From Rhodospirillum sp. (GTDB lineage Bacteria > Pseudomonadota > Alphaproteobacteria > Rhodospirillales > Rhodospirillaceae), in the NCBI GenBank assembly GCA_021741145.1, contig JAIOYK010000024.1, positions 1 through 64,000 on the forward strand: DNA of 64,000 nucleotides. The letters are read 5' to 3'. Below the pieces are notes generated by a model. That model had not been told where the DNA came from. It worked only from the letters and a program-made list of their open reading frames with translations, and did no database searches. Numbering within the stretch: the stretch's first letter is position 1; each line of letters begins with the position of its first letter. The position numbers and the translations under genes were made by a program. Shown piece after piece: positions 38,959 to 48,421 of this stretch.

Positions 38959-39165
38959 TTAGTGAAACGCGCAGCCCGGCTTGAAACCGACCTTCTTCAA
39001 GATGATGGCCAGCGGGCACAGTCCGGTAAACGCGGCCTGGAACATATTCAGCCCGACGAAGGCGGTGATCCAGAGGGCCCAGGTGATCCCGGCGAAATGG
39101 GCAAGCGCGAGGGTGGCCAGGATGACGATCCCGGCGAAGGCGAAGACAACACGGTCGATGGACAT
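38959..39165 (-). CDS. DUF2892 (YgaP-type) small membrane protein
   Basis: A 68-residue protein with two hydrophobic helices (VVFAFAGIVILATLALAHF and WALWITAFVGLNMFQAAF), then TGLCPLAIILKKVGF, the DUF2892 signature. Such domains often accompany rhodanese and SQR genes. It is third in the sqrR-sqr operon, 52 bp after sqr. ATG at 39165 has GGAG upstream. Confidence 0.82.
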   Translation of the reverse strand: MSIDRVVFAFAGIVILATLALAHFAGITWALWITAFVGLNMFQAAFTGLCPLAIILKKVGFKPGCAFH

Positions 39166-39217: not shown

Positions 39218-40513
39218 TTATTCGGCGGGGATCTTCAGCTTGTCCTTCAGCTTGACGATTCCCAGTGTTTTCAGGACATAGCGCTCGTAGATGGGTTCCG
39301 AGACGCCCTTCTTGATCTTGCGGATGAAGTATTTTTCGAAGGCCACCTTGGCCAGATGGACCCATTTGCCCTCGCCGAACCAATTGGTGTTCCGGGGTGG
39401 GATCTGCGGCAGGGCGACAAAGGCCGCGCCCCCGTCGCCGAAGTCGGCGAGGCAGATGGCGTTCCAGGTCGCCTCGCGGTCCGGCTCCCGCCCATCGATC
39501 AGGGAGCGGATGTTGTGGGCCGTGGCGGTCACCATGGACTCGATCATATAGCCGGTCTTGGGCGTGCCCACGGGCACCGGCGTCGGCTCCACCGGCGGGA
39601 TGGCGACGCAGACACCGACCGAAAACACATTCTTATGGGTTGGGTTGCGTTGGTGCTTGTCGGCCAGGATGAAGCCCCGGGGGTTCACCAACCCCTCCAC
39701 ATCGCGCACGGCGTCAATGCCCCGGAAAGCGGGCAGCATCATGGAATGCTTGAAGGGCAATTCGTGGCGTTTCTTTTCCTTGCCGTCCTCGTCGCACTCG
39801 ATGACGTGCATCAGGCCGTCCTCGACCTTCTCCACCCTGGCGTTGCAGATCCATTTGATGTGGCGGCCACGCATGATGGACTCTATCATGCCCTTGGAAT
39901 CGCCCACTCCGCCCAGGCCCAGATGGCCGATATAGGGTTCGGGGGTGACGTAGGTCATTGGGACCCGGTCGCGGATTTTCCGCTTGCGCAGGTCGGTGTC
40001 CATGATCATGGCGAACTCATAGGCCGGACCGAAGCAGGACGCCCCCTGGACCGCGCCCACGACAACCGGGCCGGGGTCGGCGCAGAAGGCCTCCCAGGCT
40101 TCGGCTGATTTGGCCGCGTGGTCGACATGACAGATGGACTGGGTGAAGCCGCCATGGGGACCCAGCCCCGGCACCTCGTCGAACGCCAGTTGGGGGCCGG
40201 TGGCGATCACAAGATAGTCATAGTCCATGCTGGACCCATCGCCCAGGTCCACCCGATTTTCCGTGGGATGGACCCGTTTGACGCCCAGGGGAGAGAAATC
40301 GATCTTCTTGCGCTTCAGGTATTTCTCCACGTCGATTTCGATATCGTCGCGGGAGCGCCAGTTGACCGCCACCCAGGGGTTGGACGGCACGAAATGGAAT
40401 GTTGGACTATTCGATATCACCGTAACGGTGTCTTCCGGGCGCAGCAGTTCCCGGACCTCGTAGGCCATCGGCATGCCGCCGATGCCCGCGCCAATGATCA
40501 CCACATGGGCCAT
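39218..40513 (-). CDS. sqr: Sulfide:quinone oxidoreductase, type I
   Basis: Membrane-associated flavoprotein that oxidises sulfide and passes electrons to quinone. FAD motif VVIIGAGIGGMPMAYEV opens the protein. Three cysteines sit at about residues 128 (QSICHVD), 160 (GASCFGP) and 354 (NAICLAD), the spacing of the three redox cysteines of type I SQR. VATG-like LVIATGPQL and TGYMIESM are also conserved. At 431 residues it is full length. It follows an SqrR/BigR-like repressor by 15 bp, which fits sulfide-inducible expression. Confidence 0.93.
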   Translation of the reverse strand: MAHVVIIGAGIGGMPMAYEVRELLRPEDTVTVISNSPTFHFVPSNPWVAVNWRSRDDIEIDVEKYLKRKKIDFSPLGVKRVHPTENRVDLGDGSSMDYDYLVIATGPQLAFDEVPGLGPHGGFTQSICHVDHAAKSAEAWEAFCADPGPVVVGAVQGASCFGPAYEFAMIMDTDLRKRKIRDRVPMTYVTPEPYIGHLGLGGVGDSKGMIESIMRGRHIKWICNARVEKVEDGLMHVIECDEDGKEKKRHELPFKHSMMLPAFRGIDAVRDVEGLVNPRGFILADKHQRNPTHKNVFSVGVCVAIPPVEPTPVPVGTPKTGYMIESMVTATAHNIRSLIDGREPDREATWNAICLADFGDGGAAFVALPQIPPRNTNWFGEGKWVHLAKVAFEKYFIRKIKKGVSEPIYERYVLKTLGIVKLKDKLKIPAE

Positions 40514-40528
40514 GACCTAATTCCTCCC

Positions 40529-40930
40529 TTACACGGTTTTGACCTGTTCCGTCACTATTGAATGGATCTCCGGGGCCTGTTCCCCCGCTGATCCTTGGCC
40601 GACATCCGAACCCGCGGCTTCCAAGTCCGCTTTCGATCCGGGGCAATAGAGACCAGCCAGGACCTCGACGATCCTTTGGGCCTCTTCGTTGGCGAGGGCG
40701 TAATGAATGAAGTGCGCTTCCCGACGGGTTTTCACGATCCCTTCCTTGCGGAGGCGCGCCAAATGCTGGGACAGGGCCGATTGGCTCAACCCCACCACCT
40801 TTTCCAGTTCCCCAACGGTCTTTTCCCCACTCGCCAGTTCACAGACGATCATCAGGCGGCGATCATGGCCGAGCGCCTTCAGGAGGGCGGCCGCCTTTTC
40901 AGCGACCCGATGAAGCTCTGTGACTTTCAT
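40529..40930 (-). CDS. ArsR family persulfide-sensing repressor (SqrR/BigR type)
   Basis: Winged-helix repressor of 133 residues: LALGHDRRLMIVCELA-like N-terminal helices, recognition helix GLSQSALSQHLARLR and wing TRREAHFIHYAL. Cysteines at positions 30 and 96 are 66 residues apart, the same spacing as the redox pair of SqrR and BigR, which form a tetrasulfide bridge with persulfides and release DNA. No metal-site ArsR CxC motif is present. First gene of the sqr operon, divergent from an RND pump. No Shine-Dalgarno is seen before its ATG. Confidence 0.88.
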   Translation of the reverse strand: MKVTELHRVAEKAAALLKALGHDRRLMIVCELASGEKTVGELEKVVGLSQSALSQHLARLRKEGIVKTRREAHFIHYALANEEAQRIVEVLAGLYCPGSKADLEAAGSDVGQGSAGEQAPEIHSIVTEQVKTV

Positions 40931-40937
40931 GGTTGCT

Positions 40938-40967
40938 AATTTAGTATTTGCTTATATTATATGTCAA
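40938..40967 (-). promoter_or_regulatory. AT-rich divergent promoter/operator of the sqrR operon
   Basis: On the minus strand TTGACA (40967-40962) and TAAATT (40943-40938) lie 18 bp apart. The predicted transcription start falls at or very near the ATG at 40930, so the sqrR message may be leaderless, matching the lack of a ribosome site. A plus-strand TTGCTA/TATTAT pair (40933-40960) could serve the RND operon, so both promoters share one AT-rich island. Confidence 0.5.
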
Positions 40968-41026
40968 TGGCGTTTATACCGGAGGGCCGGATACAACCGG
41001 TTCTGGACCAGAGAGGGGAGAGCACC

Positions 41027-42133
41027 GTGATCAAGGCGACAATTTTCAAGGGACAGATCGGACTCTCCCGAACCACCACTTCGAGCGCGATGGGTCCGAC
41101 CCTGTTCGCCGTTCTTTTCCTGACGGGGACGGCTTTCCTGGCGGTCCCACCGCAAGCTTGGTCGGCGGAGACGGTCTCCGGCCCCCTGACCGTCGAACGG
41201 GTCTCCCTGCCGGACCGCAAGGCGGTTTTCGCCACGGTGGAAAGCACCGATATCCTCCTTGCCCGGGCGCGGATCGGCGGTACGGTGGGGGAACTGTCCG
41301 TCGACGAGGGCGACTCGGTGACCGCGGAACAGAAGCTCGCCGTGGTCGGGGACCAGAAGTTGATCCTACAGATGCAAGGCGTGGACGCGCGCATGCGCTC
41401 CATGACCGCGGAGTTGAACCAGGCCCAGGTGGACCTGGGCCGGACCAGTCAACTGCGCAAGCAGGGGGTCGTGGCTCAGGCCCAGTTGGACATGGCGAAC
41501 ACCCAGGTCCGGGTTCTGAAGCAGAATCTGGAAGCCCTGGACAAGGAGCGCGCCGTGCTCGCCCAGCAGGTGACGGAGGGCGCCATCCTGTCCCCCGGCG
41601 CGGGCCGGGTGCTGGAGGTGACCGCCACCGACGGCGCCGTGATCATGGCCGGAGAGTCCATCGCCACGATCGCCAGCGACAGCTACATTCTGCGCATGCG
41701 TCTGCCCGAGCGCCACGCCCGTTTCATCAAGATCGGCGACGCCGTGGAGGTCGGTCCCCGGGGCCTGGGCGCCTCGGAAACCGGAACATGGACCAAGGGC
41801 CAGGTGGTCCAGGTCTATCCCAAGCTCGACGCGGGCCGGGTGGTCGCAGATGTGAAGGTCGCCGGCCTGGGCGACTACTTCGTGGGCGAACGGACCCTGG
41901 TCCATGTGGCCACCGGCGCCCGGGAAACCATCCTGGTGCCCGCGGCCTACCTGGAAAATCGCCATGGCCTGACCTATGCCACCCTGGAGAACGGGACCCC
42001 GGTGGTGGTGCAAACCGGCCCGGCCCGCTCCGATGGGGTGGAAGTCCTGTCGGGTCTGCGCGCCGGTGATGTCCTCGTTCCGCCCGGCGCGGTCCTGGCG
42101 GAGACCGCTCCGGCGGCGGGAGACGCTCAATGA
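41027..42133 (+). CDS. RND periplasmic adaptor protein
   Basis: Membrane fusion protein of 368 residues with an N-terminal signal/anchor (FAVLFLTGTAFLAVPP ending near WSAET). Lipoyl/barrel-sandwich segment ARIGGTVGELSVDEGDSV, a coiled hairpin rich in Gln and Lys, and GAILSPGAGRVLEV follow. GTG at 41027 has GGGGAG upstream; the ORF's earlier start is unsupported. Its stop overlaps the transporter ATG (ATGA). It is divergent from sqrR, so sulfide control is possible. Confidence 0.88.
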   Translation: MIKATIFKGQIGLSRTTTSSAMGPTLFAVLFLTGTAFLAVPPQAWSAETVSGPLTVERVSLPDRKAVFATVESTDILLARARIGGTVGELSVDEGDSVTAEQKLAVVGDQKLILQMQGVDARMRSMTAELNQAQVDLGRTSQLRKQGVVAQAQLDMANTQVRVLKQNLEALDKERAVLAQQVTEGAILSPGAGRVLEVTATDGAVIMAGESIATIASDSYILRMRLPERHARFIKIGDAVEVGPRGLGASETGTWTKGQVVQVYPKLDAGRVVADVKVAGLGDYFVGERTLVHVATGARETILVPAAYLENRHGLTYATLENGTPVVVQTGPARSDGVEVLSGLRAGDVLVPPGAVLAETAPAAGDAQ

Positions 42134-45100
42134 AACTCGGGATCTCCGGAGGCATCACCAAGGCCTTCATCACCGCGCCCCTGACCCCCCTGCTTCTTCT
42201 GGCATCCCTGGCGGTGGGGCTGATCGCGCTGTCGGCCCTGCCCCGCGAGGAAGAACCCCAGATCTCCGTGCCCATGGTGGACATCATGGTCAACGCCAAC
42301 GGTCTGAAGGCCGTGGACGCGGTGGAACTGGTGACCAAGCCGCTCGAGGATATCGTCAAGGGCATCGACAATGTGGAGCACGTCTACTCCCAGACCGTCG
42401 ATGACTATGTGACCGTCACGGCCCGCTTCGACGTGGGCACGGACGAGGACGTCGCCATGCTGCGCGTCCACGACACCATCCGCGCCAATATCGACGCCCT
42501 GCCCATTGGCATCCCCGAACCGCTGATCGTCGGTCGGGGGATCAATGACGTGCCCATTGTCGTCCTCACCCTCTACGGCGAGGGAGCGGCCGCGGACCGC
42601 TGGGACCAGAACACCCTCCATGGGGTGGCCGACGAACTGCTGCCCGAGCTGATCAAGGTGGACAACATCGGCCTGACCTTCCTGGTTGGCGGCGCCCCGG
42701 ATCAGATCCGCGTGGAGCCCGATCCGGAGCGGCTGGCGGCCATGGGGATCACCCTCAACCAGCTCGTCGACAAGATCGAGAACGCCAATCGCTCCTATAT
42801 GATCGGACGCCTGCGCCAGAACAACGCCTCCATCCCCGTGGTCGCGGGCCAGACCCTGGAGGGCGTGCCCGACATCGGCCTGCTCTTGATCACCGCCCTG
42901 GACGGTCGGCCGGTCTACGTGAAGGACGTGGCCACCGTGATCGTCGGCGCCAAGCCCGTGGAAAACCGGGTCTGGCAGGTGAGCAAGGGCGAGACCGGAA
43001 CCGACGTCCGCCCCGCCGTCTCCATCGCCCTGGCCAAGCGCAAGGGCGCCAACGCGGTCGACGTGGCCGACGCCGTCCTGGCGCGGCTGGACACCCTGCG
43101 CGGCGACCTGATCCCCCCCGGCGTGGCCGTGGAGGTCACCCGGAACTATGGCGAAACCGCCCTGGAAAAGGCCGACGAACTGCTCTTCCACCTGGGGCTG
43201 GCGACGGTCTCCATCGTCATCCTGATCACCTTCGCCATTGGCTGGCGGGAGGGCATCGTGGTGGCCGTGGTCATCCCGACCACCATCTTGCTGACTCTCT
43301 TCGCCAGTTGGTTGATGGGCTACACCATCAACCGGGTGAGCCTGTTCGCGCTGATCTTCTCCATCGGTATCCTGGTGGACGACGCCATCGTCATCGTCGA
43401 GAACATCGCCCGCCATTGGGGCATGAAGGACGACCGGACGGTCCTGCGAAAGGCCATCGAAGGCGTGGCCGAGGTGGGCAACCCCACCATCATCGCGACC
43501 CTGACCATCGTCGCGGCGCTGTTGCCCATGATGTTCGTTTCCGGCCTGATGGGGCCGTACATGAGCCCCATCCCGGCCAATGCCTCGGCGGCGATGATCT
43601 TTTCCTTCTTCGTCGCGGTGATCCTGACACCCTGGCTGCTCTACCGGGTTTCGGGCCGCAAGATCGAGCGGGATCTCGCCGCGGGAAAACCCCCGAGCCA
43701 CGCCGAGCACGAGGGTCGCATGGGGGCGTTCTACCGCAAGATCGCCGCCCCCCTGCTCATGGGACGGACGAGGTCCAAGGTCTTTCTGTTGACCGTGGGC
43801 GTCGCCACCATCGCCGTGTGCGGCCTGTTCTACACCAAACATGTGACGGTGAAGCTTCTGCCCTTCGACAACAAGTCGGAAATGCAGGTGATCGCCGACC
43901 TGCCCGAGGGCACCTCGCTGGAGGAAACGGAGCGGGTGTTGCTCGCCGCGGCCTCCCGGCTGGTGGACCTGCCCGAGGTCACCGACATCCAGGCCCATGC
44001 GGGCACGGCGGGTCCCTTCAACTTCAACGGTTTGGTGCGCCACTATTACCTGCGCTCCAGTCCGGAAATGGGCGACCTGCAAATCAACCTCGCGCCCAAG
44101 GGTGAGCGGGACCGGGACAGCCATGACATCGCCCTGGACGCGAGGGCGCGCCTGTCCGGCCTCTCCCTGCCCGAAGGCACGAGCTTGAAGGTGGTGGAGG
44201 TTCCCCCCGGTCCGCCGGTCCTGGCGACCCTGCTGGCGGAGATCTACGGCCCCGATGATAAAACCCGCCTCGCCGTAGCCGACAAGGTGAAGGAGATCTT
44301 CCGAGAGGTTCCTTTCATCGTCGACGTGGACGACTTCGCGGGCCAGCCGAGCCAACGCCTACGCATCGCCATCGACCAGGAAGCCCTCGAATACCATGGG
44401 GTTGAGCAGGAGGCCGTGCACGACACCATCCAAGCCCTCCTCGGCGGCATGAGCGTCGGCTATTCCCACCGGGGCCATGGGGCCAACCCGGTCGAGATCG
44501 CCATCCGCCTGCCCAAATCCGACCTGACCCCCGGTGAGCGTCTGCTCGCCACGCCCATCCCCGGGGCCAATGGCATCGTGGAATTGGGCGACGTGGTCCA
44601 CGTCTCCACCGAGGACAGCTCCCGGACCATTTTCCGACGGGACGGCCATTTCGCGGAAATGGTCACGGCGGACTTGGCCGGAGACTTCGAGGCCCCGATT
44701 TACGGCATGTTCGCCGTCGAAGACCTCATCGCCAAGCAAGACTGGGGCAACCTGGAGGCGCCGGACGTCACCTACCACGGCCAACCCCTGGATGACAGCC
44801 ATCCCACACTGCTGTGGGACGGGGAATGGGAGATCACCTATGTGACCTTCCGGGACATGGGCGCGGCCTTCATGGTGGCGATCCTGGGCATTTACCTGCT
44901 GGTGGTCGGCCAATTCGGCAGCTTCAAGGTGCCCCTGGTGATCCTTATCCCGGTGCCGCTGACCCTGATCGGCATTGTTCTCGGCCACTGGATGTTCGGA
45001 GCGCCCTTCTCGGCAACCTCGATGATCGGGTTCATCGCGCTGGCGGGAATTATCGTTCGCAACTCGATCCTGCTGGTGGACTTCATCAACCACCGCCGCG

Positions 45101-45330
45101 CCCTGGGCGGAACCCTGAGGGAAGCCCTGTTGGACGCGGGCGCGATCCGATTCAAGCCGATCTTTTTGACCGCCGTGGCGGCGATGATCGGCGCGGCGTT
45201 CATCCTGGCCGACCCGATCTTCCAAGGATTGGCGATCTCACTGGTCTTCGGACTGGCCTCGTCCACGGCGCTCACCCTGCTGGTGATCCCGGCGATCTAT
45301 GTCTGGCTGCGGGACGATGGGCAGGGGTGA
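42130..45330 (+). CDS. RND efflux transporter permease
   Basis: Inner membrane RND pump of 1066 residues. LSALPREEEPQISVP after TM1 is typical of the family branch using this longer N-terminus, and the proton relay reads GILVDDAIVIVENI. Large periplasmic domains occupy residues about 40-330 and 560-860. It is translationally coupled to its adaptor. Substrate unknown; proximity to sqr suggests export linked to sulfide or thiol stress, an inference only. Confidence 0.93.
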   Translation: MKLGISGGITKAFITAPLTPLLLLASLAVGLIALSALPREEEPQISVPMVDIMVNANGLKAVDAVELVTKPLEDIVKGIDNVEHVYSQTVDDYVTVTARFDVGTDEDVAMLRVHDTIRANIDALPIGIPEPLIVGRGINDVPIVVLTLYGEGAAADRWDQNTLHGVADELLPELIKVDNIGLTFLVGGAPDQIRVEPDPERLAAMGITLNQLVDKIENANRSYMIGRLRQNNASIPVVAGQTLEGVPDIGLLLITALDGRPVYVKDVATVIVGAKPVENRVWQVSKGETGTDVRPAVSIALAKRKGANAVDVADAVLARLDTLRGDLIPPGVAVEVTRNYGETALEKADELLFHLGLATVSIVILITFAIGWREGIVVAVVIPTTILLTLFASWLMGYTINRVSLFALIFSIGILVDDAIVIVENIARHWGMKDDRTVLRKAIEGVAEVGNPTIIATLTIVAALLPMMFVSGLMGPYMSPIPANASAAMIFSFFVAVILTPWLLYRVSGRKIERDLAAGKPPSHAEHEGRMGAFYRKIAAPLLMGRTRSKVFLLTVGVATIAVCGLFYTKHVTVKLLPFDNKSEMQVIADLPEGTSLEETERVLLAAASRLVDLPEVTDIQAHAGTAGPFNFNGLVRHYYLRSSPEMGDLQINLAPKGERDRDSHDIALDARARLSGLSLPEGTSLKVVEVPPGPPVLATLLAEIYGPDDKTRLAVADKVKEIFREVPFIVDVDDFAGQPSQRLRIAIDQEALEYHGVEQEAVHDTIQALLGGMSVGYSHRGHGANPVEIAIRLPKSDLTPGERLLATPIPGANGIVELGDVVHVSTEDSSRTIFRRDGHFAEMVTADLAGDFEAPIYGMFAVEDLIAKQDWGNLEAPDVTYHGQPLDDSHPTLLWDGEWEITYVTFRDMGAAFMVAILGIYLLVVGQFGSFKVPLVILIPVPLTLIGIVLGHWMFGAPFSATSMIGFIALAGIIVRNSILLVDFINHRRALGGTLREALLDAGAIRFKPIFLTAVAAMIGAAFILADPIFQGLAISLVFGLASSTALTLLVIPAIYVWLRDDGQG

Positions 45331-45758: not shown

Positions 45759-47330
45759 ATGGCCACACCTCTTCGCGGCCCGAGACCAATGACCCCAGAT
45801 TCCCAACGCGACGTCTACGCCTTCCTCTCCACCGGCGGGGCCCATGGCCATCCCGGTGAGCGGGTCGAGCAGATCCACACCCATATCTCCGCCCTCTTCC
45901 TCTGCGGTGACCGTGTTCTCAAGCTGATGCGGGCCATTGCCCTGCCCTATCTGGATCATACCACCCTGGCCGCGCGGAAAGCCTGCTGCGAGCGAGAGGT
46001 CGAGATCAATGGCCCAGGCGCCCCCGGCCTCTACTTGGGCGTTGTCCCCATCACCCGCGACGCCGATGGCCAACTGGCCGTGGATGGGGCTGGCGAGCCC
46101 GTGGAGTACGCGGTCTTGATGTACCGCTTCAAGCAGGGTGCCCTCTTCGACCGTATGCTTGGTCGGGGCCAACTCGACCGTCACCAGATGTGCGACTTGG
46201 CCGAGGCCGTGCTGGCCAGCCATGACCATGCCCCTTCTATCAAAGGGGACGGTGGACGGAATTTCACGGCCATCGTTGAAAACTCCCTGGTTTCCCTGGC
46301 CGAGACCGCCGATGCTCTGGGGTCCGAGCCGGTCCAGACCCTGGACCGGGCCATTCGCGCGGCCCTGGAGCAGGCCCAGCCGGTCCTCGCCAAGCGGGCC
46401 GAAGAGGGCAAGGTCCGGCGCTGCCATGGCGACCTCCACCTGCGCAATATCCTGTGGTGGGACGGCAAACCCACCCTGTTCGACGCCATCGATTTCAACG
46501 ACATGTTCGTCACCATCGACGTCCTCTACGACCTCGCGTTCCTGCTGATGGACCTGGACCACCGGGGCCAGCGGCGCCTCGCGTCCATCACCTTCAACCA
46601 CTACATGGAATACGCCGGAGACACAGGCGGCCTTTCGGTCCTGCCCCTCTTCCTGGCCCTGCGGGCAATGATCCGGGCCTTCGTCCAAGCCACCGCGGCC
46701 CGTGGGTTGAGCGATCCCGAAAAGGCCGCCCGAGAGGTCGAGGAGGGCAAGGCATATTTGGCCCGCGCCCTGGAATACCTCTCCCCACCCGCGCCGCGCA
46801 TGGCAGCGGTTGGCGGGCTATCGGGCAGCGGAAAATCCCGACTCGCCCGGGAATTGGCCTGCCACTTCGGCGCCGCGCCCGGCGCCCTGGTCCTGCGCAC
46901 CGACGTCCTGCGCAAGCGCATCATGGGCAAGAAACCCTACGAGAAGCTGGGACCAGAGGGCTACACGCCGGAGACCCATGCCCGGGTCTATGAAACCCTC
47001 ACGGCCGAGGCCCAGGCCGCGCTGGCCGCGGGCCATTCGGTCATCCTGGATGGAGTCCACGCCCGCCAGCACGAGCGGGAACAGGCCGAAGCCGTGGCCA
47101 CCGAGGCGGGTGTTCCGTTCACTGGACTCTGGGTCCATACGCCCGTCGAAGTGGCCATGAAACGAATCGAAACCCGAGTCCGCAACCCCTCGGACGTGAC
47201 CCTGGAAATCCGGGCCGAACAAGAAAACTTCGACCTGGGGGCGGTCACCTGGACCCGCGTCGACTCCTCCGGCTCCAAGAAGGAAACCCTGGCCCAGGGC
47301 CTCGCCGCCCTGGGGATAGCAAACGCCTAG
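45759..47330 (+). CDS. Fused aminoglycoside phosphotransferase-like kinase and AAA-type P-loop kinase
   Basis: Residues about 40-330 have APH/choline-kinase features: CHGDLHLRNILWW (catalytic loop) and FDAIDFNDMF (metal-binding). Residues about 345-520 are a P-loop kinase with GLSGSGKSRLAREL and an LDGVHARQHERE segment. This two-domain architecture is known in proteobacteria as a bifunctional phosphotransferase/ATP-binding protein, with no defined substrate. Start could also be ATG 45789 (MTPDSQRD); neither has a strong ribosome site. Confidence 0.82.
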   Translation: MATPLRGPRPMTPDSQRDVYAFLSTGGAHGHPGERVEQIHTHISALFLCGDRVLKLMRAIALPYLDHTTLAARKACCEREVEINGPGAPGLYLGVVPITRDADGQLAVDGAGEPVEYAVLMYRFKQGALFDRMLGRGQLDRHQMCDLAEAVLASHDHAPSIKGDGGRNFTAIVENSLVSLAETADALGSEPVQTLDRAIRAALEQAQPVLAKRAEEGKVRRCHGDLHLRNILWWDGKPTLFDAIDFNDMFVTIDVLYDLAFLLMDLDHRGQRRLASITFNHYMEYAGDTGGLSVLPLFLALRAMIRAFVQATAARGLSDPEKAAREVEEGKAYLARALEYLSPPAPRMAAVGGLSGSGKSRLARELACHFGAAPGALVLRTDVLRKRIMGKKPYEKLGPEGYTPETHARVYETLTAEAQAALAAGHSVILDGVHARQHEREQAEAVATEAGVPFTGLWVHTPVEVAMKRIETRVRNPSDVTLEIRAEQENFDLGAVTWTRVDSSGSKKETLAQGLAALGIANA

Positions 47331-47536
47331 CCACCGACGCGAAACGGGTTTTATAGCCCGGAATGAAAAGCGGTGAAAAGTCCGCGATTCCAGTTTATCC
47401 AAAAGCCAACTAGGGGCATAATTCCTTTTATCAAAAGTGTTTACCCCTGCCTTCTAGAACGAGGCGGCGAGTGAAGCGGAAAACCGCGCCCCTTCCGCCC
47501 ACCGCCGCGACCTTTACCCCCAAGGAGGATCCCGCC

Positions 47537-48421
47537 ATGTCCGGAATCAAGACCATTCTCTCCGTTATTGGCGACGAGACCACTGGGGAGTCCCCCCTGC
47601 GCGTCGCCCTGACCATCTCCAAGGTCCACGGCTGCCATGTCGAGGGCTTCCATGTGATGATCGACGCCGCGGCCGCCATCCCCTACGTCGGCGAAGCGAT
47701 GGCTGGCGCCCTGGTGGAAGACATGGTGGAAGCCGCCGAGAAGGACGCAAGGGACCGCGCCGACAAGGCCAAGGCCCTGTTCGACCGGGTCACGTCCGAG
47801 TTGGGTGTCTCCCAGGACGGGACTCCACCGGGAGACGGCTCGGCCACGGCCACATGGCGGGAAACCTCGGGTCCGGAGCCCGAACAGGTGGCCCTGCGTG
47901 GTCGCGTGGCCGACCTGTTGGTCCTTGGCCAGCCCGGCTCCAACGGCGAGCCCCCGTCCCTGTTGACCCTGAACGCGGCTCTGCTCGAAAGCGGCCGCCC
48001 CGTTCTCGTGGCGCCACCGGAGAGCACCGGCGGCACCGTGGGCACCCGAGTGGCCATCGCCTGGAACGGCAGCGCCGAGGCCGCCCGCGCGGTCATGGGC
48101 GCCATGCCCTTCCTGGTGGCCGCCGAAAAGGTAACGGTGCTGATCGCCGAGGCCGACGACAATGACGACGCCGCCGACGCCACCGCCCATGAGCTGGAAA
48201 CCCATCTGGCGTGGCACGGCGTGCAAGCGGACATCAAGGTCCTGCGCGCCGGGCCGGGCTCCAAGGCCGGGGAAGCCCTTATCCAAGCCTGCGAGTCCAT
48301 GGGCGCCGACCTGCTGGTGATGGGCGCCTATACCCACTCCCGTCTGCGCCAGCTTATCCTGGGCGGCGTGACTCGTCATATCCTGTCCAGCGCCCTGTTC
48401 CCGGTGCTGCTGTCCCATTAA
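47537..48421 (+). CDS. Universal stress protein, tandem UspA domains
   Basis: A 294-residue protein containing two UspA folds: the first, degenerate half from residue 1, and a second with AIAWNGSAEAARAV and the ATP-binding end MGAYTHSRLRQLILGGVTRHILSSA (G-2x-G-9x-G-S/T). Thus the C-terminal half should bind ATP. ATG at 47537 follows AAGGAGG; the ORF extension from 47471 is unlikely. It stands alone between unrelated genes. Confidence 0.9.
   Translation: MSGIKTILSVIGDETTGESPLRVALTISKVHGCHVEGFHVMIDAAAAIPYVGEAMAGALVEDMVEAAEKDARDRADKAKALFDRVTSELGVSQDGTPPGDGSATATWRETSGPEPEQVALRGRVADLLVLGQPGSNGEPPSLLTLNAALLESGRPVLVAPPESTGGTVGTRVAIAWNGSAEAARAVMGAMPFLVAAEKVTVLIAEADDNDDAADATAHELETHLAWHGVQADIKVLRAGPGSKAGEALIQACESMGADLLVMGAYTHSRLRQLILGGVTRHILSSALFPVLLSH

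Follow-up and report, generated by a model that had tools for sequence, protein, structure and literature searches.

A putative operator shared by an SqrR-SQR module and a divergent RND efflux pump in Rhodospirillum sp.

A closely similar arrangement has been described in Azospira suillum, where one operon (Dsui_3440-3443) encodes SQR and a periplasmic adaptor (MFP) along with an RND pump and a protein of unknown function; it is highly expressed on H2S and was the only operon to which Bar-seq pointed, yet deletion of the whole operon left the rate of H2S oxidation unchanged (PMC5358917). The locus described here likewise brings together SQR, MFP and an RND permease, and it differs in that the A. 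suillum genes are described as one operon, with regulator and operator undescribed there. One sentence in a survey of sulfane-sulfur ArsR proteins names RND efflux pumps as likely further targets of SqrR-type repressors; the main text specifies neither an operator nor the pump family, and does not describe the anatomy of a shared promoter (PMC12423496). Sulfane sulfur is also described in two other reports as relieving MexR/MarR-type repressors of multiple antibiotic resistance genes (PMC9495516, PMC8614764). The likeness to our case would lie in the relief of a repressor by sulfane sulfur; the difference is that those sensors belong to the MarR family, whereas ours is an ArsR protein. We know of no coupling of MexR/MarR-type sensors to SQR.

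The novelty of the present analysis is limited, since the A. suillum operon (PMC5358917) and the RND-target sentence (PMC12423496) precede it: the general link between sensor and RND pump is already in print, and what is added here is a specific predicted operator and a pump family, both open to test. Neither the shared operator nor the RND pump clade is described in the literature searched, which also contained no published SqrR operator sequence for comparison.

The locus lies in a 64,000-nt stretch (the window) that is positions 1-64,000, forward strand, of contig JAIOYK010000024.1 from the 5.47 Mb genome of Rhodospirillum sp. (GCA_021741145.1). Between window positions 38959 and 45330, sqrR, SQR and a YgaP-like transmembrane gene are on the minus strand, and MFP followed by the RND permease on the plus strand:

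38959-39165, minus strand: YgaP-like transmembrane protein (YgaP_TM; PF11127, formerly DUF2892; Pfam E=2.1e-11), 68 aa
39218-40513, minus strand: SQR, type I-like, 431 aa, with C128, C160, C354 and H132 (phmmer against 3sz0, E=7e-161)
40529-40930, minus strand: SqrR/BigR-type two-cysteine ArsR repressor, 133 aa, with C30 and C96 (profile searches, alignment to 6o8l)
40931-41026, no strand: shared divergent intergenic region, 96 bp
40933-40960, plus strand: predicted RND-direction promoter, TTGCTA-16-TATTAT (consensus scan, 9/12)
40938-40967, minus strand: predicted sqrR-direction promoter, TTGACA-18-TAAATT (consensus scan, 10/12)
40940-40955, no strand: predicted operator TTTAGTATTTGCTTAT, found at one offset in all nine family loci (consensus ATTAGC-N4-GCTAAT)
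41027-42133, plus strand: RND periplasmic adaptor (MFP), 368 aa, GTG start (TIGR01730, E=5.6e-30, above cutoff)
42130-45330, plus strand: RND permease (ACR_tran), 1066 aa (PF00873, E=2e-143)

The repressor contains the ArsR winged helix (PF01022, E=2e-15; NF033788, 86 bits against a cutoff of 55), and its only cysteines, C30 and C96, are 66 residues apart, as the original prediction had proposed. Each aligns with a cysteine of ArsR structure entry 6o8l/13ct, which we take to be Rhodobacter capsulatus SqrR, and the pair is invariant in 14 homologues from the family. In its fold, in the 66-residue spacing that matches the sensing pair, and in its linkage to sqr, rhodanese or YgaP genes, the protein resembles R. 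capsulatus SqrR as well as BigR, YgaV, HlyU, SoxR and sHdrR; it is unlike that group in being divergent from an RND operon, across a gap that carries ATTAGC-N4-GCTAAT. We did not file it as BigR itself, because its score with the BigR equivalog model NF040642 (96 bits) falls below the curated cutoff of 155. Two related ArsR paralogues are encoded elsewhere in the genome, on contigs C53 (58% identity) and C23 (44% identity, sox-linked). The latter, the third related ArsR gene (L047, C23:1-12000), has YeeE-like genes and what looks like a sox cluster next to it (genes read by eye), so the organism probably oxidizes thiosulfate too. At seven loci of the same class (L131, L195, L196, L198, L200, L203 and L204), the pump-adjacent SqrR-like regulator has Cys30 but Arg or His in place of Cys96, and sensing there may therefore differ.

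Over its full length SQR can be aligned with the Acidithiobacillus ferrooxidans enzyme (3sz0, E=7e-161), a type I SQR (PMC9666304), and it also matches that of A. aeolicus (3hyv, E=1.5e-107). The catalytic cysteines C128, C160 and C354 (A. ferrooxidans C128/C160/C356) are kept, together with H132; by these three cysteines and the full-length alignment the window SQR is classed as type I, bearing out the three type I cysteines originally noted. It departs from the A. ferrooxidans enzyme in having Leu rather than Phe after C354, and in being part, as the genes indicate, of a probably regulated module that also includes sensor and pump. DUF2892 had been named as a third member of the module; the gene is real (PF11127, 44.2 bits against a curated cutoff of 25.3) but lies at 38959-39165, outside the span of 39218-45330 first assigned to the module. 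Only 15 bp separate sqrR from SQR and 52 bp separate SQR from YgaP_TM, so the three are likely to form one transcript.

The pump combines an ACR_tran permease (PF00873) with an MFP partner (TIGR01730), the two components that define an RND (HAE-like) system, and the permease frame overlaps the MFP stop codon by 4 bp. The sequence GILVDDAI at residues 413-420 contains D417/D418, matching the TM4 proton-relay Asp-Asp pair of AcrB, and Arg977, in an IIVRNS motif found in all nine family permeases, occupies what we take to be the position of AcrB Lys940. The NCBIfam multidrug RND permease subfamily NF033617 was considered and rejected (417 bits; curated cutoff 1250). A Pfam scan of adjacent genes detected no outer-membrane factor gene, and none of the eight other RND loci of the genome was linked to SqrR, SQR or YgaP_TM when their neighborhoods were checked. 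The MFP gene is taken to start at a GTG that has a good ribosome-binding site before it, and the 96-bp length of the gap depends on this start; the alternative in-frame ATGs at 40961 and 40964 would sit within or against the promoter and operator. Beyond the pump (45759-48421) are genes for an APH/AAA-domain kinase and a universal stress protein, a pair that is also 3′ of the pump in several relatives (L038, L043, L060 and L099); in a same-genus genome without the SqrR-pump locus, the kinase and stress-protein genes are found near the other SqrR paralogue (L048).

The original prediction described the two operons as diverging from a 96-bp AT-rich gap. The divergence and, given the GTG start, the length both stand; the AT-richness is limited to about 38 bp on the sqrR side (about 76% AT), the gap as a whole being 47% GC. 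The two predicted promoters overlap, and the predicted operator at 40940-40955 falls in the spacers of both. When the gap was aligned with those of eight family relatives, the palindrome ATTAGC-N4-GCTAAT was found 8-9 bp 5′ of sqrR in all nine loci, and the frame of the RND-direction promoter (TTG-type −35, TAT-type −10) is conserved in the family loci as well. The copy in the window is degenerate, the least symmetric of the nine with 3 of 6 half-site positions matching. It scores 13.3 with a leave-one-out position weight matrix (PWM) trained on the remaining eight loci, a value attained once in 500 dinucleotide shuffles; for each of the other eight copies no shuffle of 500 reached the score.

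We surveyed 73 genomes of the family for close relatives. Each of the eight nearest SqrR homologues is transcribed divergently from the same MFP-RND pair, with permeases 73-79% identical, while the second-group homologues examined, which include C53 of this genome, are found with a metallo-beta-lactamase-like (MBL-like) gene, xseB, ispA and dxs (names read from sequence) and have no palindrome in the upstream region examined. Across the nine family loci YgaP_TM is adjacent in seven, a gene for a small membrane protein of the DUF2065 kind (assigned by Pfam on one of the two loci) in the other two, and SQR in three; the pump, present in all nine, is thus the most constant partner of sqrR among close relatives. 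Beyond one such DUF2065 neighbor, on its 3′ side, there is a Cas2-like ORF together with repeat-rich sequence resembling a CRISPR array (L039:15397-18001, read by eye).

A wider scan of named genomes by permease alignment gave 80 loci, mostly alphaproteobacterial by title, in whose neighborhoods genes were called from codon-scored ORFs and stop-to-stop HMM searches. Where at least 4.5 kb of upstream sequence was available, SqrR-like, SQR or YgaP_TM genes were nearby in 57 of 65 pump loci (44 have SqrR with both cysteines, 30 SQR and 55 YgaP_TM), leaving eight full alphaproteobacterial loci with no link to any of them. YgaP-like homologues adjoin SqrR, SQR or RND genes in 62 of the 80. An even draw of 399 genomes across the phylum was searched as well: of the best 20 same-class (alphaproteobacterial) matches 19 were linked, as were 14 of 20 more distant permease homologues (38-47% identity). 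Gene order varies: besides the divergent SqrR there are SqrR>MFP>RND with a divergent SQR (Bradyrhizobium) and SqrR divergent from an SQR>YgaP_TM>MFP>RND run (Mesorhizobium, Chelativorans), and in a tree of 128 permeases the link is present on most branches, with many rearrangements. The neighborhood of sensor, SQR and pump is, by this gene-order comparison, more than chance, and because relatives keep pump, sensor and sulfide genes together despite the shuffled order, the pump probably helps these bacteria to withstand sulfide.

The strict operator pattern occurs at three places in the genome. Besides the shared gap, it lies 19 bp 5′ of a second, divergent SQR-like flavoprotein gene (C35:2777-3904, L134), for whose product the closest solved structures are SQRs, and, as the near-perfect copy ATTAGCATTAACTAAT (C40:43876-43891), 40 bp before an AhpD/CMD-family gene (L135:7495-7836). 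This last gene has a 56% identical relative beside a YgaP-like rhodanese in the pump cluster of L062, which together with the preceding operator suggests that it is a regulon member. Neither the strict count (three places against two reversed-control hits) nor a two-mismatch search of the genome (23 places against 95 in the control) exceeds chance, and site counts are therefore not used as evidence; the argument is from positions. Outside the training family, a site with a PWM score of at least 8 precedes MFP in 21 of 76 cases and SqrR in 20 of 56, a score found in 1% of random 240-bp windows drawn from these loci, and among distant homologues the operator is present in 13 of 38 upstream regions against 3.8%. 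Three Azospirillum-type loci with SqrR beyond the pump have a site in the YgaP_TM-MFP gap and another 5′ of SqrR. Sites before the YgaP_TM/MFP pair are kept where SqrR is not in the gap (L066, L074 and L097).

We consider it quite probable, reading from the sequence comparisons, that the locus is a single sulfide-stress module with a two-way switch, in which shared repression, release by sulfane sulfur, oxidation by SQR and export by the RND pump would be joined. An SqrR-type dimer on the 40940-40955 palindrome would block both sqrR-sqr-YgaP_TM and MFP-RND. Sulfide oxidation would yield sulfane sulfur that links C30 to C96, whereupon the repressor would leave the DNA and both operons would come on; SQR would convert sulfide to polysulfide or zero-valent sulfur, while the pump, with a housekeeping outer-membrane channel, would rid the membrane or periplasm of a compound that sulfide gives rise to. 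What the compared genomes show directly is which genes are present, that the sensor has its two cysteines, that the predicted operator keeps its position, and that pump, sensor and SQR are linked. DNA binding, the sulfur switch and induction we infer from characterised relatives. That one persulfide sensor may control both SQR and the pump, as first proposed, is thus well supported, though indirectly, by three independent computational lines that agree: the sensor-pump linkage is invariant in close relatives, the conserved palindrome lies within both divergent promoters, and the same site turns up again 5′ of other genes linked to sulfide and where clusters have been rearranged. The H2S-induced SQR-RND operon of A. 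suillum, as a precedent in the literature, adds support to shared control.

The least certain step is the substrate of the pump, for which a hydrophobic or organic polysulfane or an organic persulfide is favored over metals or drugs. It is quite possible, though short of probable, that a general envelope or drug pump has been placed under joint control with SQR and recruited to sulfide stress, acting on metal sulfides, metals, damaged lipids or another non-sulfur substrate: by sequence the permease is unremarkable for an ACR_tran protein, its best matches being to multidrug RND models, and the A. suillum authors read RND induction as metal-sulfide export (PMC5358917). Persistence of the SQR/SqrR/YgaP_TM linkage through rearrangements across Pseudomonadota suggests instead a sulfur-specific role. 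Mere chance neighbors, with a pump unrelated to sulfide, would account for the eight unlinked loci, but the comparative data strongly disfavor this very improbable reading, given linkage in 57 of 65, its lack at the other eight RND loci of the genome, and an order that varies while the linkage stays.

As to the control itself, the palindrome is close enough to the sqrR start codon to be typical of autorepression, and regulation could be confined to the sqrR-sqr side with a constitutive pump promoter; this we regard as improbable, since those 16 bp also make up the spacer of the promoter that faces the pump and L066, L074 and L097 keep sites before YgaP_TM/MFP. The low symmetry of the window's operator counts against the two-way switch, as does the fact that the C53 or C23 ArsR could bind the same site. 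The eight unlinked alphaproteobacterial loci and the unaltered H2S oxidation after deletion of the A. suillum operon also weigh against it. That one of these two-cysteine paralogues is the main repressor of the gap is unlikely, though both are present and related and the sHdrR and SoxR of H. denitrificans have common binding sites: neither the C53 nor the C23 neighborhood contains a PWM match of at least 9, and it is the RND-linked repressor that travels with the site. Control of both operons by the SqrR of the locus accordingly remains our preferred reading.

Little is understood of how cells get rid of the polysulfide and zero-valent sulfur that SQR produces, and the usual reading of RND pumps is as exporters of drugs or metals. 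If one operator does tie a pump family to the sulfide sensor, that family would be a concrete candidate for the export of sulfur compounds. We tentatively raise the possibility that this RND clade is a dedicated exporter of sulfane sulfur (polysulfane or zero-valent sulfur), inherited with SqrR, SQR and YgaP-like proteins across Pseudomonadota, with a single ATTAG-N6-CTAAT operator coupling oxidation to export. The tie between sensor and pump would connect sulfide exposure with efflux, through an operator that can be tested directly, and it points to a likely role for an RND family present in many genomes under generic names.
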